Of a DNA stretch of 23,432 nt, positions 1,891-21,363 are shown piece after piece. How positions within the stretch are numbered: position 1 is the first letter of the stretch; every line of letters begins with the position of its first letter. Both the position numbers and the translations under genes were made by a program. The stretch spans positions 1 to 23,432 of the IMG/VR virus record IMGVR_UViG_3300031873_000725; one strand, given 5' to 3'. The notes under the pieces were generated by a model. That model did no database searches. It worked only from the letters and a program-made list of their open reading frames with translations, and was not told where the DNA came from. This DNA comes from a virus.

Positions 1891-3543
1891 ATGTCAGGTA
1901 AAGTTGAAGCAACGTTGAGTGAGGTTGCCGAGTCTTGGATAAAGCTAAACGGTAAACAGTTCGATTTAACGAATTGGCCTATGCACCGCGCTTTCTACGA
2001 TTGTAGGTCCAGACGCACCTTATTTAAAACAGGACGACAAGTTGGTAAGTCCACCACCTTAGCCAGCTTCGCAATTACTGAGTGTAGTGTTATACCACAT
2101 TTCTCCGTAATGTTTATAAGTCCGACTAAGGAGCAGACAGTCCGTTTTTCTAACACACGTGTCGCCAAAACAATGAGGTACTCTCCTCATATTAGCCGCA
2201 CCTTCTTACGTTCTGGTTTAGCAGACCGTGTTTTCCATAAGCAATACCGAAATGGTTCGGAAATGCTTTTCACTTACGCCCTAGACGATGCAGACCGTCT
2301 TCGTGGTCCGTCAACGGATAGGAACATGTATGACGAGGTTCAGGACATTCTTTACGACCCGGTCATCATCGTAGGAAACGAGTGCCTTTCTCACTCTAAA
2401 TATGCTTTCGAGACATATGCTGGTACACCCAAGACAATGGAGAATACCATCCAGTACTTGTGGGAGAACAGCAGCCAGACCGAATGGGTGATGCAGTGTG
2501 ACGGTTGCAAGACGCATCAGTACGTAGACTCTGTTAAGTCCATTGGTAAAGAAGGAATAATCTGCCTTAAATGCGGGAAGTACCTAGACCCTTTCATAGG
2601 CCAGTGGGTTGATTTCAACGACTTTAAGAATTCGGCTGTTGAAGCGGAATTTCATATCAAGGGTTTTCATATCAGTTCCCCGCTTATGCCTGAGTACAAC
2701 CCTCATTCTATGGCGAAGCATGACTACGCTTTGTACGATGAGGCGCGCATTAGATGGAAACGCATCCTAACCAAATTTGAATCTTTTCCTGAGTCAAAAT
2801 TTAAGAACGAGGTATTAGGAGTTTCTGATGATGTAGGTTCGCGTATGATTTCAAAAGAAGAAGTCGAGCGCCTATGTGTTGGAAAACAACTCCAGCAATA
2901 TCCTGATACCAAACAACACACTGATATATCAACTATTGTTGCTGGTGTTGACTGGACAGGTGGGGGTACTACGGGCGTATCCAGAACAGCTCTTTGGATT
3001 TGGGGTTACCGTCCGAGGGACAAAAAGCTTGTTTGCTTATTTTATAAAACTTACCCTGGAGTTAATCCCGTAAATAATATTGAAGAAATTGCCAACGTGT
3101 GTCTGTCTTATAAGGTTGGCCTTATAGTCGGTGACGCAGGTGAGGGTCACGCACCTAATGACCTTCTACGTAAACGGCTAGGCGTACACAAGGTTACTCA
3201 GGCTCAGTATACCAGCCAAACGAAACCTGTAATTTGGAATCAAATTGACAGATACACCGTGGACAAGACCACGATTGTCGACAACTTTTTCCTTCTGTTA
3301 AAAAGGCAAGATGTCGAGCTGGGACCCATTCAGCAGATGAAGACAGCCATCGACGACATGATGAACGAGTACGAGGATATTACGGCCACTGGCCGTAAAG
3401 TCTGGACTCATGCCATGTCACTTCCCGATGACTGTCTTCACGCTGCAATATTTGGGTGGCTAGCTTTTAAGATTGTGACGAGTGATTTGCAGTTCTACTA
3501 TACGAGCGAGGATGAGAAAGCTAAGGCAAAAGCTACGGGCTAA
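1891..3543 (+). CDS. terminase large subunit (DNA-packaging ATPase/nuclease)
   Basis: 550 residues. The N-terminal ATPase shows a Walker A-type P-loop (TGRQVGKST, residues 47-55), Walker B with catalytic acid (MYDEVQD, around 146-152) and an AGTP coupling motif at 177-180. A zinc ribbon with C203, C206, C225 and C228 lies between ATPase and nuclease. The RNase H-like nuclease follows, with D354 in VAGVDWTGG, a second acid in VGDAGEG and a late acidic pair in LPDDCLHAA. The enzyme drives genome packaging into proheads and cuts the concatemer. The zinc ribbon recalls GpA-type terminases, but the P-loop and nuclease order fit the general TerL family. No small subunit is visible nearby. The start ATG lacks a Shine-Dalgarno sequence; the 28 bases upstream are pyrimidine-rich. 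The stop TAA overlaps by 4 bases the stop of the convergent polymerase gene. Confidence 0.92.
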   Translation: MSGKVEATLSEVAESWIKLNGKQFDLTNWPMHRAFYDCRSRRTLFKTGRQVGKSTTLASFAITECSVIPHFSVMFISPTKEQTVRFSNTRVAKTMRYSPHISRTFLRSGLADRVFHKQYRNGSEMLFTYALDDADRLRGPSTDRNMYDEVQDILYDPVIIVGNECLSHSKYAFETYAGTPKTMENTIQYLWENSSQTEWVMQCDGCKTHQYVDSVKSIGKEGIICLKCGKYLDPFIGQWVDFNDFKNSAVEAEFHIKGFHISSPLMPEYNPHSMAKHDYALYDEARIRWKRILTKFESFPESKFKNEVLGVSDDVGSRMISKEEVERLCVGKQLQQYPDTKQHTDISTIVAGVDWTGGGTTGVSRTALWIWGYRPRDKKLVCLFYKTYPGVNPVNNIEEIANVCLSYKVGLIVGDAGEGHAPNDLLRKRLGVHKVTQAQYTSQTKPVIWNQIDRYTVDKTTIVDNFFLLLKRQDVELGPIQQMKTAIDDMMNEYEDITATGRKVWTHAMSLPDDCLHAAIFGWLAFKIVTSDLQFYYTSEDEKAKAKATG

Positions 3544-6500
3544 CCGACATCTAGTAGACCTAAATCTGCATCCAAGTCTTCACGTATCTCAACCTCAATA
3601 AAGTCGTTTTCGTCTTCTGGATTAACAGGAGCTAGGAATTGTACGTTCTCTATGGTCTTTAAGTAATTAGGCACGGACATCAATTCGCCGTAAGAATTAC
3701 CCACTTCAACGTCCCATTGGAAAGGAACAGGTAGCCAAGGGTAACGGTCGGCTACGTAGTCTACGCCATACTTCTTAATGAAATCAGGTAGTTGACTCAC
3801 ATAATTCTTGGGACATTCAAAACCAATGGAGTCGTGCACCGTGAGCAGTAGTTCCCCGCGAAGGTCGTTATGTAGCGGTAACTCTATATGGTGCAGCACG
3901 TCCATAACGATGTCAGAGCTCGTACTTTGAATCTTGAAGTTGATGCTCTGACGCTCTGCCTTATTTCGCATGAAGAAGGGGAGGGAGTGCAGATTATTGA
4001 AGCGCCGACGACGCCCAATAAAGGTCTCGACAAAGTTGAAAGAGTTAAGCTGGTCTTTGGTGTCTTGAATGTAGCTCTTCATAGCTGGAAACATAGTGAA
4101 CAGGGTATTCACGATGACCTGTGCTTGGTCATCAGGAATGCTAACAACCGAAGACACCTTTGCCGGTGTTGCGCCGTAAAGAATTCCGAACACCACGCGC
4201 TTAATGATGCTGCGAAGGTCGCAGAGCTTTACTCCGTACTTAAACAAAGACGAGTTCTTGCCGTCAGGTAACTTTAATCCGTCATCTATGAAAGCATCTC
4301 GCTCACAGAAATCCTCGTAGGTCCAGGGGTGCTCATCATCTGTACCGACTGTAGCCAGAGTCTGTTTATGGTGCTCCGGCGCGATACCTTTAAGAATGTT
4401 TGCGGGAGAGTACACCAGCGACGCCACGAAGCTGTGAGGGTCTAGGCCATCGTTGAGAGCTTGTATGAGGTTCTTGTCATGGCTGTAAGCGGCATAGATG
4501 CGGACCTCCGCTGCTTTGGCGTCTGTGTTTACAAAAGCGAGGGAGGGATGCGAGGGTATAAAAATCTTCTTTATGTTGTGAATCCCTATTTTCTTAGGGA
4601 TATTCTGCATGTTTTCCATACTTGAGGACAAACGCCCGCTTGAGGTGCCGTGTTGGTGATAGTGCGTATGCATCCGGTCATCTTCACGTGTGAGAACCAT
4701 AATGTTCTCGATGAACGTGTTGCGGGCCTTCTGCATCGCTCGAAACTCCAACAGCGTCCTGGAGAACGGGCATTTGTGCTTAAGCGCCAGAAGTTTTAGG
4801 AACTTCGCGTTGGTTGATATAACCCCCTTCTCTGTTTTGGGCGGTTCTTCAATGCCCTCGTAGCAGACTAGCTTTCCAGTCTCAGGGTGAAGATACCCAA
4901 TGTTGTAAAGTATCTGGCGAATCTGTGGAGCGCTCGCAGGGTTAAAAGCGGTTGAGTAGCCTTTAGGTAGCATCGAGTTAAGGTTGATAACTGCCTCGCG
5001 AGAAGACTGCTCCATCTTAACTGCGAGTTGCTGTGTATAAGGCCGGTCTACACACACGCCACGGTCTTCCATCCTTGCTAGCGTTGTTAGCGTAGGGATA
5101 GCCCGTGTGGTGGTTAAGCGTATAAGTGGGTCCCAAGATGGTCCTCGGCCAATTACAACTGTGGGGTTTTCGTTAGTCCACAGTATCTCACCTTTTTTAC
5201 GTAGGTCTTCGTTTGAGTGATTATTGAAAGGTGCCCTAGCTTTAACGAACCTCTCAGTCTCTACTTGCATTGCTTTACGCTGGCGTACAGCAATCTGCCA
5301 AGTGACATCCGCATCGATAGCGCCGTATTTACTGAGGACATCTAGAGGTATACTTGCGTACCCATCATCAGCAAGAAGTAATTGTTCAGCTTTACTAAGC
5401 TTTTCACCTTTGTCCTTGGCTTCTTTCTTAGCATCAGCCATCACGTCTTTGTTGTACGCTTTTACGTCAGTTTCATAATTTCCATAGGCTGGTAAATACG
5501 AGCGAGTTAATTCCTTCAAACCATAAAAGCCCTTCTTGTCCTCAGCAAGAATATGCTCGCATACCATTGTATCCCAAATGATATTGTTGAGCTTAAAGCC
5601 TTTACGGCGTAAAACCTTGAAGTCGTACTTGATATTATGCCCCACCTTGGGGTTTTCGGAATTGAACAGGCGAATTAAGGCGTCTCTAACAGATTCCAGA
5701 GTGAGCGGTGAGTCCGCGTGCTCGATTGGAATAGAAGCCGCACACCCCGCGTCCCACGCGACAGTAACCGTAAGTAGTTTGAGCTTTTTCCGATGCGGGT
5801 AAAGAGTGTTCGTTTCTGTATCAATAGCAAGTAACTGTCGTCCAGGAGGCATCCCGTTAGGAGCGTAAGCGACGATTTTGTCAACAAGGTCGTTTACCTC
5901 TTGTACAGTTGTAGGAAACACGTAATTCGCTGCAATATTGTTTACGTTGGCCTGCAAAACAGGATGCTTACCTAGTTTGGACAGGAGCACCTGTTGCATA
6001 AAGGTGTTGATGTGCTGCGTAACGATGTCCACATAACCAGCTTTGACGACCATGTGTTTGAGAGAAATAGACGCGAAAACGTAGGCGTCTCGTCCTCTAA
6101 CTTTAATAGAGTGAAATTTACCCACAACGTCTGCGTGCTTTTGAAACTTAATCCCTAACGAGCGCAGTACGGTCGGACCAAAGGCCAGGACGATAATGGG
6201 TCGTCCTTCTGGCGTACAGCGTACTAACTGGCTCTCAAGAATGTCTGCGCATTTCTCTACTGCTATAGCTGGTGGCTTTTCAATTTCGCAGTGCACCGCG
6301 TACGTAAAGTACATTTCTATTTTGTTGTACGCTGGATTCTTTGTCCGGTAATCATTTAGCAGAATTTTAACGTTTTTTTCCAGCCCAGAACTCCAACCTA
6401 TATGTTTGTACACGTCGGCAGAGGGGCCTACTGTAGGTGACTCACAGACAATAAAACAGTCTGTTTCACTTGGGCCACCTGTGTGTATGAAGTGCTTTTG

Positions 6501-6662
6501 GCCATACAGGGGGCAGGCAGGGCAGCTGATTCCTGACCAGCCATTGGCACACATACCGCATTCAGTTGAGAGCATTTTTTTAGGCTGAGAAAGACTCTCC
6601 TCCACCGAGGGACTTGCTTTCTTCCTGGGTTTTTTCAACGTCGGTTCTTTCGTCTCCGTCAT
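3540..6662 (-). CDS. DNA polymerase family A with 3'-5' exonuclease and N-terminal UDG-like domain
   Basis: 1040 residues in three parts. Residues 30-225 look like a family 4-type uracil-DNA glycosylase fold: a Cys cluster (C35, C38, C47, C50), a degenerate GEAPG-like segment (CESPT) near 73, and AFGPTVLRSLG near 160. Key glycosylase residues look altered, so activity is doubtful. The exonuclease has D281/E283, N343/D347 and Y446/D450, all DEDDy positions, so proofreading should be active. The polymerase has motif A with D714, E719 and R721, motif B with R817, K821, F825 and Y829 in the same spacing as E. coli Pol I (754/758/762/766), and motif C with H943-D944, where the usual following Glu is Ser. 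The start at 6662 has AAAGGTG nine bases upstream but overlaps the primase gene by 83 bases. An alternative ATG (residue 30, 6575) lies 4 bases after the primase stop but lacks a near Shine-Dalgarno. It is the replicative polymerase of the block. Confidence 0.93.
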   Translation of the reverse strand: MTETKEPTLKKPRKKASPSVEESLSQPKKMLSTECGMCANGWSGISCPACPLYGQKHFIHTGGPSETDCFIVCESPTVGPSADVYKHIGWSSGLEKNVKILLNDYRTKNPAYNKIEMYFTYAVHCEIEKPPAIAVEKCADILESQLVRCTPEGRPIIVLAFGPTVLRSLGIKFQKHADVVGKFHSIKVRGRDAYVFASISLKHMVVKAGYVDIVTQHINTFMQQVLLSKLGKHPVLQANVNNIAANYVFPTTVQEVNDLVDKIVAYAPNGMPPGRQLLAIDTETNTLYPHRKKLKLLTVTVAWDAGCAASIPIEHADSPLTLESVRDALIRLFNSENPKVGHNIKYDFKVLRRKGFKLNNIIWDTMVCEHILAEDKKGFYGLKELTRSYLPAYGNYETDVKAYNKDVMADAKKEAKDKGEKLSKAEQLLLADDGYASIPLDVLSKYGAIDADVTWQIAVRQRKAMQVETERFVKARAPFNNHSNEDLRKKGEILWTNENPTVVIGRGPSWDPLIRLTTTRAIPTLTTLARMEDRGVCVDRPYTQQLAVKMEQSSREAVINLNSMLPKGYSTAFNPASAPQIRQILYNIGYLHPETGKLVCYEGIEEPPKTEKGVISTNAKFLKLLALKHKCPFSRTLLEFRAMQKARNTFIENIMVLTREDDRMHTHYHQHGTSSGRLSSSMENMQNIPKKIGIHNIKKIFIPSHPSLAFVNTDAKAAEVRIYAAYSHDKNLIQALNDGLDPHSFVASLVYSPANILKGIAPEHHKQTLATVGTDDEHPWTYEDFCERDAFIDDGLKLPDGKNSSLFKYGVKLCDLRSIIKRVVFGILYGATPAKVSSVVSIPDDQAQVIVNTLFTMFPAMKSYIQDTKDQLNSFNFVETFIGRRRRFNNLHSLPFFMRNKAERQSINFKIQSTSSDIVMDVLHHIELPLHNDLRGELLLTVHDSIGFECPKNYVSQLPDFIKKYGVDYVADRYPWLPVPFQWDVEVGNSYGELMSVPNYLKTIENVQFLAPVNPEDENDFIEVEIREDLDADLGLLDVG

Positions 6663-9600: not shown

Positions 9601-10098
9601 GTACGCGTACTCTCCTTTATAGTCATTTGCGATAGCCTTGCACATCTCTTCATGGCACACCGTAAAGACGGCTGCCTTCATAGCGTAGTTTACACGTTGT
9701 TCTTCTAGCTTACCTGCAATGTCCCTAGGAATAAAATCGAGCTTATGGAGCTCGATTAACTCACCTAGACTCTCAGACAGAGTTTTTTGGGTAATTACGG
9801 AGTAAAGTTCAATGGGATTGTTGGTGTGGTATCCACATCCAAAGCAATAACAAAAACACTCGTCTGTATCTATTCCGAAAGAAGGGCTAGTCTCGTCGTG
9901 GTCAATTGTGGGGCATAAGGAAGTGACTTTAGAGCCTGAATGATAAGGCTCTAGAGTACTCTGAGCGTCTTTTATTATTTTGACCCAGGTCTCAGCCGGA
10001 AGATGACGCCAAATTTTTCGCTTTATTTCAGGTGTTAAGCCCCTTGATGGGTCCAATACACTCGACCCCGCCGAGGACTTTTTCTTGTTCTTGGTCAT
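6580..10098 (-). CDS. primase-helicase: CHC2 zinc finger, Toprim and C-terminal P-loop ATPase
   Basis: About 1172 residues from the ATG at 10096-10098, or 1175 from a GTG nine bases upstream. Numbered from the GTG: a CHC2-type primase zinc finger uses C65, H70, C88 and C91; a Toprim domain follows with E320 in LVEGEMDA and an acidic stretch YFVGDSP near 367-373. A C-terminal P-loop ATPase has Walker A GETSSGKSS at 763-771 and Walker B LLMVLDEAEAD at 811-821, followed by a segment with CAIGG and DFNRML that fits sensor positions. Together these fit a single-chain primase plus helicase-type motor. The ATPase is not a clear DnaB-type RecA fold and may be closer to the SF3/D5 or AAA+ type; a fold search would decide. 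The gene overlaps the nuclease gene by about 70 bases upstream and the polymerase gene by 83 bases downstream. The three likely act as one replication unit. Confidence 0.85.
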   Translation of the reverse strand: MTKNKKKSSAGSSVLDPSRGLTPEIKRKIWRHLPAETWVKIIKDAQSTLEPYHSGSKVTSLCPTIDHDETSPSFGIDTDECFCYCFGCGYHTNNPIELYSVITQKTLSESLGELIELHKLDFIPRDIAGKLEEQRVNYAMKAAVFTVCHEEMCKAIANDYKGEYAYVKPAVKWLTEERGIDIDILHMLPIGVYPTLANLSNKLSDKFLARVAAEQSQNINSIPNTPDVANAAVEYFSSMNRGGGDRDFLGSIVFPLACSVNNIGSFKFRKPISQGVKSFYVHDDPFDEYSGLFGLNWDYYKNCWGDKKDKRAVYLVEGEMDALSIMAHMAKTGNTSYPVLSVSGSSATSTLKNILKESSVSSLYFVGDSPNKGGDLKPSESGDKVVKRWIETMGDINSYVFTATAWAKLAPGDDPDSAVHRVGGDVVIDELFTNQKENFCPTSKWLYQCAYTELSEIGEDDYRRFIEKAAEYGQFLTNTLDRESFVANVVDDFPSIKAEPLKRGIAGLVKTEAGFIENCRLSLMEHLYVVGTESGADRKLLLLDKETQTVHRIKLDSVSAIARELAPIAGRLTEYVHDRVGYPPFVIDPSTEEGDGLLKVSDEKVRFYMNEAVLDLAKGMPDIHETKLFRQGYHRIHVTESDIREYIVCGERIIKILREASGTVYKKLDGPRDQGVLFDTGYLRDARVEDPWFPGGISVEKLNEHKDTNLVDVFDKIEALFSTGFYFKNNNTVPPMLAAQTIYYAINNAFKRQNIMYVTGETSSGKSSLAGVFSKISSHKSIRLIYMAQGHMGFTEASVSRLADGCRLLMVLDEAEADEGSSKSSAVKAVQETFRGVVNGDGSTRVRASMTSQGVITNDIFCPVIFCAIGGVEKAQDFNRMLIVETQKQAGRDSAINIVEKAFGKEYAWKLAQDLALGLYPHIPAILQAYEDITLEFPNFKTYTGVVMEYRYASSLFPVLAIMKYLKKDWIGFLKNYVEDNADNISRAANITESETLVSAMMHNPVVVVPSDNKDDRQIRRASIAQLLSNPALRERINTASCGIYFDEEKNLLLVLLDQALTELLPGLYTRQGMKSQQLRQSLMRSNIALTTEEMLESGIIPRSYIVLGHGVKPHNVVVLKAKSWMQDNGKVSTIPQPPTKGVITDDGDERTDVEKTQEESKSLGGGESFSA

Positions 10099-10921
10099 TA
10101 GTAGCACCGTTTACGTGAGTGGCAAATTCGGGACATAGCGCATAGTAGTCACACCAGCTACATAATACTCCCGTTTGCGTGTTATCCAGTTTAGACCCGT
10201 CGATAGTTTCAGTCGCGTCCAACATGAACTGTACGACTTTGTCCATAAGGACGTCAAGTCGGGATAAATCCATATCGGCACCGTTCTCAACCTGTTTATC
10301 TTGCACCCAATGTATTGCGGGTATCATACGCATAACATGTGGATAATTAGACTTAACTAAAAAGGCATAGAAGTCTAACTGATTTGCGTAATGGGCTATG
10401 CCTTTATTCTTTCCTGTTTTGTGGTCTATTATGATGGCTGTTGGTTTATCGAGGTAGATTAAACCAACATCTATTACACCACGTAAGAGGATGGTGTTCG
10501 TTGACCCCCACTTCTCAAAGAATGGTTTCTTGTCGCCGCTAAATCCAGCAGCTATCTTCTTTTCTGTTAGAAGTTCATGACGGTCACCCTGCCCTCGAAA
10601 GGCGTTAAAGGTCGAGATGAACTTCTCCGCAGCAGGACGTGATGCTTCAAGTGACTCTATTTCACGTGTCACCAACTTATTTTCTCGTGTGACAAACTGG
10701 ATGGCCGATTCCATTTTATGCCCAAGCACCAGCATCTCTAAAAGCTTGTGTACGGCCTTACCAACACGAGAATCAAAGTTGTCAGTCAGCTTTAACGCGG
10801 CCTTGTCGGGCTTGTTGACGTATCCGTATTTAAATTTGAGAGGACATTGCTTGACTGCTTCAACTTTGCTTAGTGACCACGGAGCATGCTGCAACAAAAA
10901 TGGTGTTAGGTCTTTTGGCAT
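10028..10921 (-). CDS. Cas4/RecB-like PD-(D/E)XK nuclease with Fe-S type cysteines
   Basis: 297 residues. An N-terminal Cys (C26, in KQCPLKF) and a C-terminal C254-x2-C257-x5-C263 (CSWCDYYALC) give the four-Cys arrangement used by Cas4, AddB and related nucleases to hold an Fe-S cluster. Catalytic features are H58 (GKAVHKL), D151 (RGVIDVG), D166-x-K168 (IIIDHKTGK) and Q181 (YANQLDFYAFL), in the normal RecB-family order. Such enzymes process DNA ends in replication or recombination. No cas1 or cas2 gene is in the window, so a role in phage DNA metabolism is more likely than CRISPR adaptation. The ATG at 10921 has AAAAGGTG just upstream. The gene follows a terminator at 10940-10977 and overlaps the start of the primase gene by about 70 bases. 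Confidence 0.85.
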   Translation of the reverse strand: MPKDLTPFLLQHAPWSLSKVEAVKQCPLKFKYGYVNKPDKAALKLTDNFDSRVGKAVHKLLEMLVLGHKMESAIQFVTRENKLVTREIESLEASRPAAEKFISTFNAFRGQGDRHELLTEKKIAAGFSGDKKPFFEKWGSTNTILLRGVIDVGLIYLDKPTAIIIDHKTGKNKGIAHYANQLDFYAFLVKSNYPHVMRMIPAIHWVQDKQVENGADMDLSRLDVLMDKVVQFMLDATETIDGSKLDNTQTGVLCSWCDYYALCPEFATHVNGATNDQEQEKVLGGVECIGPIKGLNT

Positions 10922-12051: not shown

Positions 12052-12148
12052 TTTTGTCTTCTCCGGTGAAAAGGGGTTAAAGGTTAACGCTCGGTCGTTG
12101 CGTTGTCTACTTCTTTCGATTACCCTTTTAGTACAGGAGGTGAGGTAA
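12052..12148. promoter_or_regulatory. divergent intergenic region between the replication block and the sigma factor gene
   Basis: This 97-base gap separates two outward-facing start codons and should hold promoters for both directions. The best - strand candidate is TAGACA, a 17-base spacer, then TAACCT; the -10 half matches poorly. No convincing + strand sigma-70 box was found. A GTTAAC palindrome lies in the left half. The exact promoters cannot be fixed by eye. Confidence 0.4.
12135..12143 (+). promoter_or_regulatory. perfect Shine-Dalgarno site of the sigma factor gene
   Basis: AGGAGGTGA is a full-length match to the 16S rRNA anti-Shine-Dalgarno and lies 5 bases before the ATG at 12149. 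It is the strongest ribosome-binding site in the window and fixes the sigma factor start. Confidence 0.85.
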
Positions 12149-13189
12149 ATGGATAATTTCTTTGAGAGTCGCACATTTAGGAGTTATTACGACGATGTGG
12201 GTAAGCATAAGGTACTCACACCAGCTAGAGAATATGAACTTCTTTTACGCTACAAAAGCTGTCCTAAATGTGCCAAGCGCTTACCCCACCTTACAAAAGT
12301 TAATAACTGCCCTGATTGTGGTGCGTCTACCCCAAAACGTATAACAAGTAAAGCCATCACTTGTACCGAATGTAGCGCCCGTTTTGATGCTTTTGCGCCA
12401 CCAGTTTACTGCGTATATTGCGGGTCTCCCAGAGACTCTGTGGCACGAGAAGAACTTATAGTTTCCAACTTACGCTTTGTAGTTACATCGGCTAAAAAGC
12501 TCGCCAAATCGGCAGAAGTCATACAGAAATTAATTTCTGCAGGCAATGTTGGGTTGCTAGTGGCGCTAGATAAATTTGATATGGCCCGCGACACACGGTT
12601 CTTAACGTACGCGTCCTGGTGGATACGCAAAGAAATGTTGGACGAGTTACACGCAAGTGGGATTGTTCACGTACCATCGCACAAACAAAAAGCAGTTAAG
12701 AAAAGTCAAAAACTAGGGTCGTATGAGTGTATCCATTGTGGTGTGCGAACAGATAACCCATTACGCACATTACAACCTAAATGTGTTAAGCTAGGAAGAA
12801 AGCGAAGACCCCACGATTTTAACGCCGTTAACGCCGAAGAGATTACGACGATGTCTTCTATTGTGCCACTAGAAGAAGCGATGAACCGACCAGGGCCAGA
12901 TGAGAACCTTGAAGACCTTACGATTAGTAACGATAACGCCATTCTACTCCGTAAGGTGCTCAATGACATGCCCATACGAGCTCGTGACCGGTTCATCCTT
13001 CTCCAGTATTACAATATTGCTCAGGACGAGCGAAAGACTGAACCGAAAACTCTTCCTCAGCTAGCAGCTGTAACAGGTGTGACCGTAGAACGGGTACGAC
13101 AAGTTAAGCTGGTAGTTTTGAAAAATTTACGGCGTCAATTAGTGGACAAAAGTCCGGTGGGGGTAGACGTGGTGGTAGTGAGCGTTTAG
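12149..13189 (+). CDS. sigma-70 family RNA polymerase sigma factor with inserted zinc modules
   Basis: 346 residues. A region 1.2-like segment (residues 9-36) is followed by two CxxC-CxxC zinc ribbons (C38/C41/C54/C57 and C72/C75/C88/C91). Region 2 runs from about 97 to 168, with DKFDMARDTRFLTYASWWIR closely matching the 2.3-2.4 core of primary sigma factors. A region 3 start (HVPSHKQK, 174-181) follows, then a third Cys group (C194, C197, C212). Region 4 ends the protein, with a helix-turn-helix TLPQLAAVTGVTVERVRQVK at 301-320. It should direct RNA polymerase, host or phage, to phage promoters. Zinc ribbons at these positions are not part of normal sigma factors. It has a perfect Shine-Dalgarno site, stands alone on its strand, and its stop overlaps that of the convergent ParB-like gene by 4 bases. 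Confidence 0.92.
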   Translation: MDNFFESRTFRSYYDDVGKHKVLTPAREYELLLRYKSCPKCAKRLPHLTKVNNCPDCGASTPKRITSKAITCTECSARFDAFAPPVYCVYCGSPRDSVAREELIVSNLRFVVTSAKKLAKSAEVIQKLISAGNVGLLVALDKFDMARDTRFLTYASWWIRKEMLDELHASGIVHVPSHKQKAVKKSQKLGSYECIHCGVRTDNPLRTLQPKCVKLGRKRRPHDFNAVNAEEITTMSSIVPLEEAMNRPGPDENLEDLTISNDNAILLRKVLNDMPIRARDRFILLQYYNIAQDERKTEPKTLPQLAAVTGVTVERVRQVKLVVLKNLRRQLVDKSPVGVDVVVVSV

Positions 13190-15047: not shown

Positions 15048-16250
15048 TTACCTCCAGTTGCTACCGTCTTTTTCGTATTGCTGGCTTGCTTCCAACAATG
15101 CTTTCGTTGTTTTGGGTCCGAGGATACCGTCGACCTTAAGTTCGGCCTCCGGAGCAAGATCCATCTTTTTGTGGTTCCACGCAGCTTGGAACATGGACAC
15201 CGCCTGTTTAAACGCCCAGTCGTAGATACTGGCAGGGCCACTTGTAAATCCCAAGTTATCAAGGTGAGGTTTTGCTTCTACCACGGAAAGGACGTGTTTA
15301 CCGAAGTCGGGTTCATCGTCCGTGTGCGTCGGAATTTTTACGCCGTATTCCGGGCTCTCAGCGTTGTCTTCCTCAATTTTCGAGTGGTCCTCAAGCTTCT
15401 CCGGCTTATTCAGGGGAGAATTTTCAAAACTCTGAATGATGGCAAGCTGGTCAACCGGGAACATACCCTCGTTAAACGCGCCAGAGTTACATTCAGCTGA
15501 GGGCCACATCGGACCCATGTCTGACTTGCCTTCACGCCAGTCAGAATGCTGAGACATACGCAAAGATGAGATGCGTTCGCCGAGAGCCATCTTTACCAGT
15601 CTTTTGAGTTTGATGTTAGTTGTAATTTGGTCGAGGGTAAAAGGTTGCAGGTACTCAGCGCCTTTGTATGGGGGAGTAATTGATGTAGGCGGTAGTTCGT
15701 TAAGCAAATTAAGTGGAACCTCACCCGCCCAGTACGCCCAATTTCCCTTATCGTTCTTAAACAAACGTCCTGCATTGACAGTTTCGACGCTAATACTGTC
15801 TCTGTTTTTTCGGGGCTCGTGCCAAGCTCCATTAGACAGTGATACCAGGTAGAGAGGGTCTCCGTGGTGGTCTGAAATGAAATGCGTTGACGCTCCGTTA
15901 AATTTGCCATTGGCATTCTTCCTAGAACTAAACCAGTTCACAGTTGACCACGCGTTGATGCCCGCTGTGAAGTGGTCCACCCACCAGAGGTCCTGAACTG
16001 TGCCTAGTGCGAGTGGGTAGCACTGCTGGGTTGGAAAAAACTTCTCGAGTCCTTTGGCTTGGATGCGCTGGTGTGTATAGAGGAACAGGTCGTTGAGGGC
16101 CTTTTGAGCCTCGGTATCCTTGAGGACTTTCCCACTTCCCACTTTTTCCCACGCAGCCAGGAAACGCTGCCTTGCTGCGTCTCCAGTTGCCTTCACCAGC
16201 GCCCAAAAGTCTTTTTGGGGCAAGCTGTTATAGTTCACGAGCATATTCAT
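15048..16250 (-). CDS. endolysin: N-acetylmuramoyl-L-alanine amidase with peptidoglycan-binding domain
   Basis: 400 residues from the ATG at 16248-16250, which overlaps the TGA of the upstream nuclease gene (ATGA) and follows GAGGG; the longer frame to 16304 would overlap that gene by about 58 bases. A central amidase-2 type domain shows VDHFTAG, then STHFISDHHGDP, AWHEP, ISVETVNAG and finally QHSDWREGKSDMGP, which supply the zinc His ligands and the late acid in family order. A C-terminal peptidoglycan-binding domain has VDGILGPKTTKALLEA. The N-terminal 80 residues are of unknown role. It should cut the amide bond between muramic acid and the stem peptide at lysis. No signal peptide is seen, so release needs a holin, and none is recognisable nearby. 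Unusually it sits among DNA-metabolism genes. Confidence 0.85.
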   Translation of the reverse strand: MNMLVNYNSLPQKDFWALVKATGDAARQRFLAAWEKVGSGKVLKDTEAQKALNDLFLYTHQRIQAKGLEKFFPTQQCYPLALGTVQDLWWVDHFTAGINAWSTVNWFSSRKNANGKFNGASTHFISDHHGDPLYLVSLSNGAWHEPRKNRDSISVETVNAGRLFKNDKGNWAYWAGEVPLNLLNELPPTSITPPYKGAEYLQPFTLDQITTNIKLKRLVKMALGERISSLRMSQHSDWREGKSDMGPMWPSAECNSGAFNEGMFPVDQLAIIQSFENSPLNKPEKLEDHSKIEEDNAESPEYGVKIPTHTDDEPDFGKHVLSVVEAKPHLDNLGFTSGPASIYDWAFKQAVSMFQAAWNHKKMDLAPEAELKVDGILGPKTTKALLEASQQYEKDGSNWR

Positions 16251-17116
16251 CTTTTCCCTCGGCACCTTCCGTAGTAACCACAAAACTTTGGGGTACACGC
16301 CCACGATGTGGGGTCACACCTGGGAAACACACCCTTCTTGATAAAGTCCGCAATCTCCTCAACGTCTTCTGTTAACAGCTTGATATCGAAAGCGTCCCTT
16401 ACCGACCTCTCCTGCTCGTACTTTACGCCAGTCTTACTGTCAATTAAGAAGTCGATTCTAACGCGACTGGTGCCTTCTGCAAGAGCATAAAACGTTAACT
16501 GAGGCGTAAAGCGCACTTTTTGTTCTGGCCACTTCTTAGCAGTGGTTTTCAAATCTGAAACAACTTCCACCATGCGAGGGTTGTCTGGGTCATTTTCTAG
16601 TGACATATCCGTATCTTGCACGCTGTCTACGAGGTCGATGACACCGCGCACCGGCACAACTCCAACTTTGATAGCGAAAGTTTTTTCCGCGCTGATAGGT
16701 TTGATACGAGGTACAGCGTGGCGATAGTACGCGGCATATCCGTTGACGGCCGCATCTTTGACTACGCCTGGAGAAAATCCGTCCCAGTTTTCAATAAAAG
16801 CTGACTCGGCGTCGAAACAGTTGGCGACGCTTTCAGCTCCTTTTTTGAAGTCCAAAGGCTTACCGGTCTCAATCATGCTCTTGTGGATTATTTCAGCCCC
16901 CTTGTGAATCGCAGTGCCTTTGACCATTGAAACCCCTGGTGGGTCCACCAACTCCTGTACGTAGCGATATTCATATTGGCGCGGGCAACGCTGGTACATA
17001 CCGACCTGGGAGGGCGACATGACTCCCTTGGGGAGGCCCATATCCATAAAGTTTTCAGGATAGTTAAACTTTTTGTCGGACGAACGCTCTTCTTTGACAT
17101 TGTCTTCTTCAGACAT
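16247..17116 (-). CDS. second Cas4/RecB-like PD-(D/E)XK nuclease
   Basis: 289 residues. C44 (YQRCPRQYEYRY) and a C-terminal group C267, C274, C279, C285 fit a four-Cys Fe-S site with one spare Cys. Catalytic positions are H71 (GTAIHKGAE), D161 (RGVIDLVD), D188-x-K190 (VSDLKTT) and Q206 (TPQLTFYALA). The order matches the nuclease at 10028-10921, but the sequences differ widely, so this is a distant paralogue rather than a recent copy. It probably processes DNA ends. AGGAG lies 7 bases before the ATG, and its TGA overlaps the endolysin start. It sits downstream of the SNF2 helicase on the same strand, which suggests a helicase-nuclease pair, although no contact is shown. Confidence 0.82.
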   Translation of the reverse strand: MSEEDNVKEERSSDKKFNYPENFMDMGLPKGVMSPSQVGMYQRCPRQYEYRYVQELVDPPGVSMVKGTAIHKGAEIIHKSMIETGKPLDFKKGAESVANCFDAESAFIENWDGFSPGVVKDAAVNGYAAYYRHAVPRIKPISAEKTFAIKVGVVPVRGVIDLVDSVQDTDMSLENDPDNPRMVEVVSDLKTTAKKWPEQKVRFTPQLTFYALAEGTSRVRIDFLIDSKTGVKYEQERSVRDAFDIKLLTEDVEEIADFIKKGVFPRCDPTSWACTPKFCGYYGRCRGKR

Positions 17117-19647: not shown

Positions 19648-21363
19648 ATGACGACTGACACCATGAGATTGTTTGACCCCTACCACGGGGGTATGGATGG
19701 GACTCATTCGAATCCTTATTACCAGTACTCGCAGCTCTATACGCCCAAGCGGCTGAAGGAACTGTTTGTCTGGTGTGAGTACCTCTTTTACCAAAGTCCG
19801 CACATTTTTGCGGCTCTCCGTAAATTCGGTGAATATCCAATCACCAAGATTACTTACGAGACCGTAAACGAACATCTCAAGCAGCGGCATAAAGATTTAC
19901 TAGAGAAAACACTCCGGGTAAGAGAGTTCCTTATTAAAGCGTCTCTGGACAAATATGTCTATGGGAATAGCTTCGTCTCTATGTACCAGCCTTTCGTCCG
20001 CTACTTAAAGTGCACGAAATGCAGCGCTCTTACGAACATCAAAAACACGGCGTATACCTTTGATGTTACCAACCTTAAGTTCACGTATTCGTGCCCTGCT
20101 TGTAAGGGAAAAGTAACAGCTTCTGAAGACCAAATTGAAGACAGAAAACTTCTGTTGGCTAAGGGAATCAACTTTATTAGGTGGGACGCCAAAGACCTGG
20201 ACATTGACCATAATCCGCTCACAGGAGAATCTGAATACTATTACAAGATTCCTCAGCAGGTTGTGAGCAGAGTTAACGCGGGCCACAAGACCCTTATAGA
20301 CACAATGCCTATTGGCTTCTTAAAAGCCATTAAGGCGCGTAAGCCGTTTAAGTTTGCACGCGATGCCATTTTTCACATGAAAGTTGGTGCTCCAGCGGGT
20401 ATCAATCCTCAGTGGGGTCTTCCTCCTATCTTGGCGGCGTTGGAGCGTTTTCACTTTACGCAGATTCTACGAAAGGCTAACGAGGCAATTGCGCTCGACT
20501 ATCTGGTACCATTCCGTGTTTTGCACCCAACTCAGTCATCTGGAGTCGCTGACCCCGTACAACAAATTAGTCTCTCAAAGTGGAAAGACGAGCTCGACCT
20601 CAACCTTCGATTACACCGTAAAGACCCACTGCATATTATGTACGCCCCCATCCCGGTGGGAATGGTTCAAATTGGTGGTCAAGGACGCGCGCTGCTCACC
20701 TTGGGAGAAATACAAGAGGCCGAGAAGAGTATCGTTGCCACCTTGGGAATTCCCATGGAGTTCCTCTACGGAGGACTCACTGGGCGTGGCATGGAAGCGA
20801 CTCTTAGAATGATTGAGAACCAACTCGCGACCCATATCGCGGACATCGTCGACCTTATGCAATGGATTGACGACAAGTGTTCTGAGTTCTTGGGTTGGGA
20901 AAAGATTACGGTAGGTCTGACACCTTTCCGTATGATTGATGATTTTGAAAAGCAACAGCTCATGTACAACGTGTGGCAGACAGGAAAGCAGACGGGCTCT
21001 CAAGTTCTGTCGGACACCACGATGTGCGAAATATTTGAGATTGACCCTCTCCGTGAAGAGACACGTATCAAAGAAGAGACACTACGCGGCGTTAGAATCA
21101 GTAACGCTATCCAGATTGAAATGCAGAAACAGCAAAACAACCTGGCGCAGCAGACGCAACAAGAAGCTTTGCAAGGTCCGTCCAATTATAACCAGCAACA
21201 GGTTATATCGAATGCGGACCAAATTGTTAACGAGCTGTCTCAAATGGAATACGGCGCCAAGAAGAGCCGGTTACACCAGTTGCAAGTTGAAGACTTTGTG
21301 TTGTACGCTGTTGTAGTCCAACGTATGGAACTACAAAACAAGCAGCAATCACAAGGAATGTAG
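19648..21363 (+). CDS. portal-like head protein with zinc ribbon
   Basis: 571 residues. GGAGG four bases before the ATG fixes the start. A segment LDKYVYGNSFVSM near residue 100 matches the YGN region common in portal proteins. A CxxC-CxxC ribbon (CTKC near 121 and CPAC near 150) follows. Later parts include GINPQWGLPPILAALERF, the long-helix-like region ending at DLMQWIDDKCSEFLGW, and a Gln-rich helical C-terminus, all as expected for the stem, wing and barrel of a portal. The portal is the dodecameric ring at the head vertex through which the terminase moves DNA. The terminase gene is 16 kb away on the same strand, not adjacent as in many phages. The assignment rests on length, local motifs and context; a profile search would settle it. 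Confidence 0.72.
   Translation: MTTDTMRLFDPYHGGMDGTHSNPYYQYSQLYTPKRLKELFVWCEYLFYQSPHIFAALRKFGEYPITKITYETVNEHLKQRHKDLLEKTLRVREFLIKASLDKYVYGNSFVSMYQPFVRYLKCTKCSALTNIKNTAYTFDVTNLKFTYSCPACKGKVTASEDQIEDRKLLLAKGINFIRWDAKDLDIDHNPLTGESEYYYKIPQQVVSRVNAGHKTLIDTMPIGFLKAIKARKPFKFARDAIFHMKVGAPAGINPQWGLPPILAALERFHFTQILRKANEAIALDYLVPFRVLHPTQSSGVADPVQQISLSKWKDELDLNLRLHRKDPLHIMYAPIPVGMVQIGGQGRALLTLGEIQEAEKSIVATLGIPMEFLYGGLTGRGMEATLRMIENQLATHIADIVDLMQWIDDKCSEFLGWEKITVGLTPFRMIDDFEKQQLMYNVWQTGKQTGSQVLSDTTMCEIFEIDPLREETRIKEETLRGVRISNAIQIEMQKQQNNLAQQTQQEALQGPSNYNQQQVISNADQIVNELSQMEYGAKKSRLHQLQVEDFVLYAVVVQRMELQNKQQSQGM

Follow-up and report, generated by a model that had tools for sequence, protein, structure and literature searches.

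Reviews describe phages with a multisubunit RNA polymerase as lacking a recognizable sigma factor, in whose place gp226 or gp68 is found, and sigma-bearing phages as lacking such a polymerase (PMC7598289, PMC7824862, PMC13282480, PMC9209446). At the sequence level, AR9 gp226 shows no discernible likeness to sigma factors, and phiKZ gp68 is sigma-like in structure only (PMC9209446, PMC13282480). The mReC phages were reported by Weinheimer and Aylward (2020) in a paper whose text contains neither the word sigma nor the word zinc (PMC7481178). A sigma chain that also carries a zinc finger domain is described for the ECF52 sigma factors of actinobacteria (PMC5826349), and archaeal TFB and eukaryotic TFIIB do the jobs of the bacterial sigma linkers (PMC6372665).

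The phage lineage analyzed here carries both a sigma factor and a multisubunit polymerase, and its sigma factor has been rebuilt with predicted zinc modules at three different sites. The analysis followed up a sequence-only reading of one stretch of 23,432 nucleotides from IMG/VR virus record IMGVR_UViG_3300031873_000725, which as a whole is called the window below. That reading was incomplete, having missed the variation of the modules between clades and the RNA polymerase gene with which the window ends. The zinc-module sigma factor is a real and well-conserved feature; on balance, we lean toward reading it as a sigma factor of the phage's own polymerase whose structural zinc modules were gained stepwise.

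Core regions and predicted zinc modules of the sigma factor

The open reading frame had been called a sigma-70 factor with its core motifs intact, and this held up. Region 2 of the window protein was clear (Pfam E value of 8.8e-12 over residues 103 to 167), the match to region 1.2 was weak, and region 4 of this protein alone gave an E value of 3e-4, under the curated Pfam cutoff; the region 4 model PF04545 was matched by 15/15 family members at an E value of 0.01 or lower (best, 3.4e-7). PHROG 351 (sigma factor) also matched the window protein, with an E value of 2.9e-26, and the nearest solved proteins were SigB, RpoS, SigA, and RpoD. The full-length model (mean pLDDT of 67) aligned with bacterial sigma factors, its residues 7 to 171 superposing on Thermus thermophilus SigA at 2.7 Å over 118 residues and its residues 3 to 172 on Escherichia coli sigma-70 at 3.1 Å over 113 residues; in solved holoenzymes, it is sigma-70 from residue 92 on that aligned with the model from residue 3 on. 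A complete region 3 domain is absent, helix 3.0 being followed directly by the putative Cys3His module. Group 4 sigma factors are likewise without region 3, so its absence does not exclude a protein from the sigma-70 family. The dN/dS ratio of the gene, modules included, was 0.01 to 0.09, as read only where synonymous change was unsaturated. The features are collected in Table 1.

Table 1. Positions of the sigma gene, its parts, and associated genes in the window
Feature	Position	Strand	Basis
Ribosome-binding site AGGAGG	12135..12140	+	8 nt upstream of ATG; read in sequence
Sigma-70-family factor, 346 aa, three zinc modules (predicted)	12149..13189	+	ATG start; Pfam, PHROG, and solved-protein matches
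Region 1.2, residues 11-31	12179..12241	+	Weak Pfam match; model alignment with sigma-70
Zinc ribbon A (predicted), C38/C41/C54/C57	12260..12319	+	Invariant Cys; DZR/DZR_2 in members; AF2 pLDDT ~90
Zinc ribbon B (predicted), C72/C75/C88/C91	12362..12421	+	Same grounds as ribbon A
Sigma domain 2, residues 97-167	12437..12649	+	Pfam Sigma70_r2, E 8.8e-12; fold fit
A131, at the site of E407 in sigma-70 region 2.2	12539..12541	+	Ala in 50/50 lineage sigmas
Helix 3.0, residues 174-189	12668..12715	+	Model helix 177-189; alignment with sigma factors
Zinc module 3 (predicted), C194/C197/C212/H222, replacing rest of region 3	12728..12814	+	Homologue motif; DUF7129
Region 4 with helix-turn-helix, residues 279-328	12983..13132	+	Pfam Sigma70_r4 in 15/15 members
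Portal-like protein, marker of order sigma - helicase - portal - RNAP	19648..21363	+	
RNA polymerase β/β' fusion, N-terminal 462 aa, cut by contig end	22046..23431	+	

The window protein has 11 cysteines (residues 38, 41, 54, 57, 72, 75, 88, 91, 194, 197, and 212), exactly those listed by the sequence-only reading, and is otherwise Cys free. All 11 lie inside the modules (residues 38 to 91 and 194 to 222), which make up 83 of the 346 residues, an arrangement with a chance probability of about 1e-7. That reading had also placed two consecutive Cys4 ribbons where sigma-70 has its nonconserved region, and conservation, the Pfam matches of family members, and the model superposition all agreed with this. 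Each ribbon consists of two CxxC knuckles 12 residues apart, with the Cys invariant in 15 distinct sequences. The eight ribbon Cys were invariant in the three-module and two-ribbon sets and in homologues down to 42% identity, and the insert around them was as little as 32% identical to that of the window protein. Homologues that keep the insert and lose the Cys, which would have counted against the ribbons, were absent among the homologues compared. Zinc-ribbon models were matched within the family (DZR in 10/15 members, with a best E value of 1.4e-4, DZR_2 in 5, and others too), the window protein alone falling below the DZR cutoff and one member weakly matching the TFIIB zinc-binding model (E value of 0.0073). 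When the ribbon fragment was modeled alone with AF2, its mean pLDDT was 87 and no residue fell below 70; the structure prediction proposed earlier as a check thus speaks for confidence in the fold, not for Cys-Cys distances. None of the PDB matches to the ribbon model was significant (best Foldseek E value of 0.37; best Z score of 2.4, to a human RNAP I subunit), and the top-ranked ones were mostly zinc folds. Within the modules, dN/dS was 0.04 to 0.09 where measurable.

Clustering of the Cys by chance was ruled out by the probability given above, by the invariance of the Cys, and by the sigma cores of about 80 cellular relatives, in which no CxxC pair was found; the sole CxxC among these relatives (L178) lies 188 residues past region 2 in an overlong frame. 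Given invariant Cys in a fast-changing insert, matches to zinc-ribbon models, and a confidently predicted fold, the modules very probably bind zinc.

The third Cys group was present as described (C194, C197, and C212) but had to be redrawn. The motif C-x2-C..C..H-[DE]-F was kept in 14/16 homologues, the remaining two (L007 and L008) having C-x-C instead, and since a H-[DE]-F follows the third Cys so regularly, module 3 is most likely a Cys3His module and not a three-Cys group. With H222 as the candidate fourth ligand, it would end at position 12814 and not at 12790. C194 and C197 were invariant wherever the module was present, whereas the third Cys shifted by a few residues. A match to DUF7129, which was found in 9/15 members, lay near residues 189 to 205 of the window protein. 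The earlier placement between regions 3 and 4 was too simple, because the module directly follows helix 3.0, where the zinc-free sigma factor of Salmonella phage Arash has the rest of its region 3 domain, and thus replaces the rest of region 3. Module 3 was poorly predicted (pLDDT of about 55 to 70).

Distribution and history of the zinc states

Two scans of IMG/VR gave 53 loci with relatives of the sigma factor. The three-module set comprised 16 sequences (15 distinct), and both ribbons without module 3 were found in 3 further distinct sequences. In 49 IMG/VR loci the sigma gene was orthologous and occupied one conserved place, in a lineage of phages of about 180 to 200 kb with the gene order PolA, primase, nuclease, ORF391, sigma, ParB-like, ..., nuclease, helicase, and portal. 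Cellular origin of the zinc sigma factor was considered and rejected, since a single-protein scan of genome contigs returned no relative and an alignment scan returned only ordinary sigma factors without a core CxxC.

The N-terminal part of the window's PolA-type DNA polymerase (3540 to 6662, - strand) is Cys rich (CGMC...CPACP) and resembles a fused family-4 uracil-DNA glycosylase domain. The terminase large subunit (1891 to 3543, + strand) and the portal-like protein have a CxxC...CxxC pair each, and that of the portal-like protein was kept in relatives, including G007, whose sigma factor is zinc free. Two PHROG 69 exonucleases (10028 to 10921 and 16247 to 17116, - strand) each have a C-terminal Cys cluster, and this pair of genes flanks the sigma gene in nearly all loci.

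Five states of the sigma factor were observed: no ribbon (L034, L035, L037, and L042 to L048), one ribbon at the same place as in the window protein (L024 to L033), two ribbons (as in L016 to L022), two ribbons plus module 3, and one ribbon elsewhere. The last, a Cys4 ribbon between regions 2.2 and 2.3 (L036, L038 to L041, L049, and L051), sits inside domain 2, beside the -10 recognition helix. In a tree built from other genes, every state corresponded to one clade, except that the two-ribbon clade, in which module 3 is deleted, was nested within the three-module clade, and module 3 was thus lost there. When the tree was rooted with Arash and Vibrio phage D69, the earliest branches were zinc free, the clade whose ribbon sits at the other place split off next, and the one-ribbon and three-module clades were sister groups, with support values of 86 and 99, long outgroup branches, and a short tree search. 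With five states, a zinc-free root, and the minimum number of changes on the tree, the simplest history is stepwise: a zinc-free ancestor gained a first ribbon, to which another ribbon and module 3 were later added, and the ribbon at the other site was gained separately.

The phage RNA polymerase and its probable sigma factor

The polymerase fragment at the end of the window was 80% identical to the RNA polymerase of G001 and 64% identical to that of G002, and it contained Pfam RNA_pol_Rpb2_3 (E value of 1.5e-7). PF00623 and PF00562 were found in one open frame in 13 of the lineage's 14 large records; the exception, a partial record of 113 kb, stops between the sigma and polymerase loci. In this architecture β is fused to half of β'. 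The fusion of G002 (1,450 aa) extends past NADYDGD, and the remaining β' lies on a separate 599-aa open reading frame with a C..C..CxxC site; a protein with LigD-type primase-polymerase and 3'-phosphoesterase parts is encoded between the two (L250:4088-5581, - strand). The phage polymerase matched solved bacterial β and β' with E values of 5.5e-71 and 7.3e-41, respectively. Some frames were oversized: that of G012 (L255:2739-9638, 2,300 aa) is interrupted just past NGDYDGD by an intein containing a LAGLIDADG domain and also has a split β domain, and those of G003 (1,793 aa), G005 (1,927 aa), and G013 (1,965 aa) are also longer. An RNA polymerase alpha subunit was not found in the lineage records (13/14 controls were positive), and a search for a T7-type polymerase gave no match, but its control likewise gave none.

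The phage core is reduced at two places. In five phages with four sigma states among them, the β flap was 12 residues shorter, at its tip, than that of Clostridioides difficile, and the N-terminal zinc domain of β' was absent; the Arash polymerase sequence reads the same at both sites, and the β/β' open reading frames of G001 and G002 contain zero Cys. The clamp coiled coil of β' is retained. The coiled coil is the docking site of sigma domain 2, and the flap tip is the usual docking site of sigma domain 4. Since the tip is missing even though the sigma factor keeps domain 4, the fit between sigma and core appears imperfect. In region 2.2, Ala was present in 50/50 lineage sigmas and also in those of Arash and D69, at a position with Glu in 64/64 scored cellular sigmas and in nearly all other viral sigmas. 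We take this position to be that of E407 of sigma-70, a clamp-helix contact. The Arg matching R275 of E. coli β', a known sigma-binding residue, was absent from 5/5 phage polymerases aligned. It is mainly this Ala and the lack of an R275-type Arg that suggest a sigma factor tuned to the phage core and not to that of the host, and it probably serves the phage's own polymerase.

The sigma gene product would then be the subunit through which the multisubunit RNA polymerase encoded by the phage recognizes its promoters. Domain 2 would dock on the β' clamp helices and open the -10 element, domain 4 would read the -35 element, and helix 3.0, like these two domains, would do its usual sigma work. During evolution, the loop that joins regions 1.2 and 2.1 would have gained two tandem Cys4 ribbons, and the Cys3His module would have come to occupy the site of the missing part of domain 3. 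The modules are most likely rigid extra surfaces that hold the sigma factor on the reduced core, touch the upstream promoter, or do both, extra contacts with the holoenzyme or the promoter being the reading that we favor for them.

Repeated sequences were searched for in the genomes. In two three-module genomes, where intergenic DNA is 5 to 7% of the sequence, CTATACTT was intergenic in 6/8 copies (G002) and 4/4 copies (G001), and all four occurrences of CCTYGTR-17-STATAST in G002 were upstream of genes. We rely on neither as a promoter, because the pattern was picked post hoc, a two-block motif fit yielded no more hits than did shuffled or reverse-strand controls, and in the window CTATACTT did not precede any gene. 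In the zinc-free G007 (loci L275 to L284), a repeated element, CTTCATAAAT...CTGGTATAGGGTTTTAAC, ends 16 to 23 nt before several genes (upstream of those at about 104.4, 105.4, 105.9, 111.9, and 112.7 kb) and may be a promoter.

Phage sigma factors usually act on the host core (PMC7598289, PMC7824862), and region 4 is conserved here despite a phage core without the flap tip. Both points fit a sigma factor that redirects the host RNA polymerase, as in other large phages, while the phage polymerase works with some other factor or without one and the modules contact host subunits or a phage coactivator. We consider this somewhat unlikely, given that sigma and polymerase co-occur wherever the locus was covered and that the change of the clamp contact from Glu to Ala is uniform in the lineage, was not seen in any scored cellular sigma, and is very rare among other viral ones. 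Moreover, only one region 2 sigma gene was found per record, which leaves the phage core without a second sigma-70 candidate among the genes found. Binding of the modules to a third phage protein (a coactivator, the sliding clamp, the ParB-like neighbor, or a nucleoid protein), which would couple sigma to replication or to the stage of infection, is unlikely. The modules do vary between clades, as partner-binding parts often do, and a ParB-like gene adjoins the sigma gene in many loci; however, this gene also stands beside zinc-free (L034) and one-ribbon sigmas, independently of the zinc state, and no partner was identified.

The sequence-only reading had also suggested that the modules might replace a missing polymerase contact. 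The phage does have a polymerase of its own without the β' zinc domain and the flap tip, but the zinc-free clades and Arash share these losses. Docking in itself does not require the modules, because cores reduced to the same degree are served by zinc-free sigmas. The ribbons might have taken over docking on a core without the flap tip, anchoring the protein like the ribbon of TFB or TFIIB, which we hold to be distinctly unlikely; if true, the sigma factor would work partly on archaeal or eukaryotic logic, evolved in one phage lineage whose intermediates are extant. It is very unlikely that the ribbons replace the β' zinc domain, the zinc element having moved from core to sigma. The domain is indeed missing from 5/5 aligned polymerases, and the G001 and G002 frames are Cys free, but the G007 clade and Arash also lack it and yet have zinc-free sigmas, and its loss preceded the gain of ribbons on the rooted tree. 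General compensation for the lost domain is thus rejected, and its simple replacement by the ribbons is not supported. A metal or redox switch that silences sigma under zinc starvation or oxidation might be read from Cys that are all paired or clustered in a protein without others, but it is highly improbable: structural zinc is what CPxCG knuckles typically hold, the strictly conserved set of four ligands in each ribbon fits structure better than sensing, and there is no known reason for a lytic phage to gate its transcription by metal or redox state.

Comparison with known systems

The order of regions 1.2, 2, 3.0, and 4 is the same in the window sigma as in bacterial sigma-70/RpoD, SigA, and RpoS. 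It differs from these in having two predicted Cys4 ribbons in the place of the nonconserved region, in a domain 3 that has kept its first helix alone, ahead of the putative Cys3His module, and in the change from Glu to Ala in region 2.2. Among the open-access literature on zinc-containing sigma factors, no description of a sigma core with inserted ribbons was found. The ECF52 factors are, unlike the window sigma, of the ECF type. Their zinc domain is fused at the chain end as an anti-sigma part and is not inserted in the core.

AR9 gp226 and phiKZ gp68 are likewise specificity subunits for a phage-encoded β/β' polymerase, but the window protein is an overt sigma-70 with zinc modules; the absence of a sequence-recognizable sigma factor, a trait of the phiKZ/AR9 type, is not shared by this lineage, in which a clear sigma-70 is present. 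The mReC phages are also metagenomic tailed phages with bacterial-like β and β'; their capsid marker PF07068 had no match in 14 records, and the control genomes were without a match too. Related phages are Salmonella phage Arash (OQ632216) and Vibrio phages D69, D148, and D181, whose polymerase is 36% identical over its full length and whose sigma gene lies in the same neighborhood. The sigmas of Arash and D69 have no Cys modules, and the region 3 domain of Arash is whole. The GenBank record of Arash annotates both a sigma factor and an RNA polymerase; their co-occurrence is therefore already on deposit, and no discussion of it was found in the open-access literature. The orthologues, whose module number runs from zero through one and two to three, form a natural series for the effect of the modules on core binding and promoter choice, and the cultured phages Arash and D69 put its zinc-free end within experimental reach. 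The lineage would show a sigma factor adapting to a core stripped of standard contact sites. Like the window sigma, archaeal TFB and eukaryotic TFIIB are main initiation factors with a zinc ribbon; outside the ribbon the folds are unrelated, and the likeness lies only in a possible mode of working.
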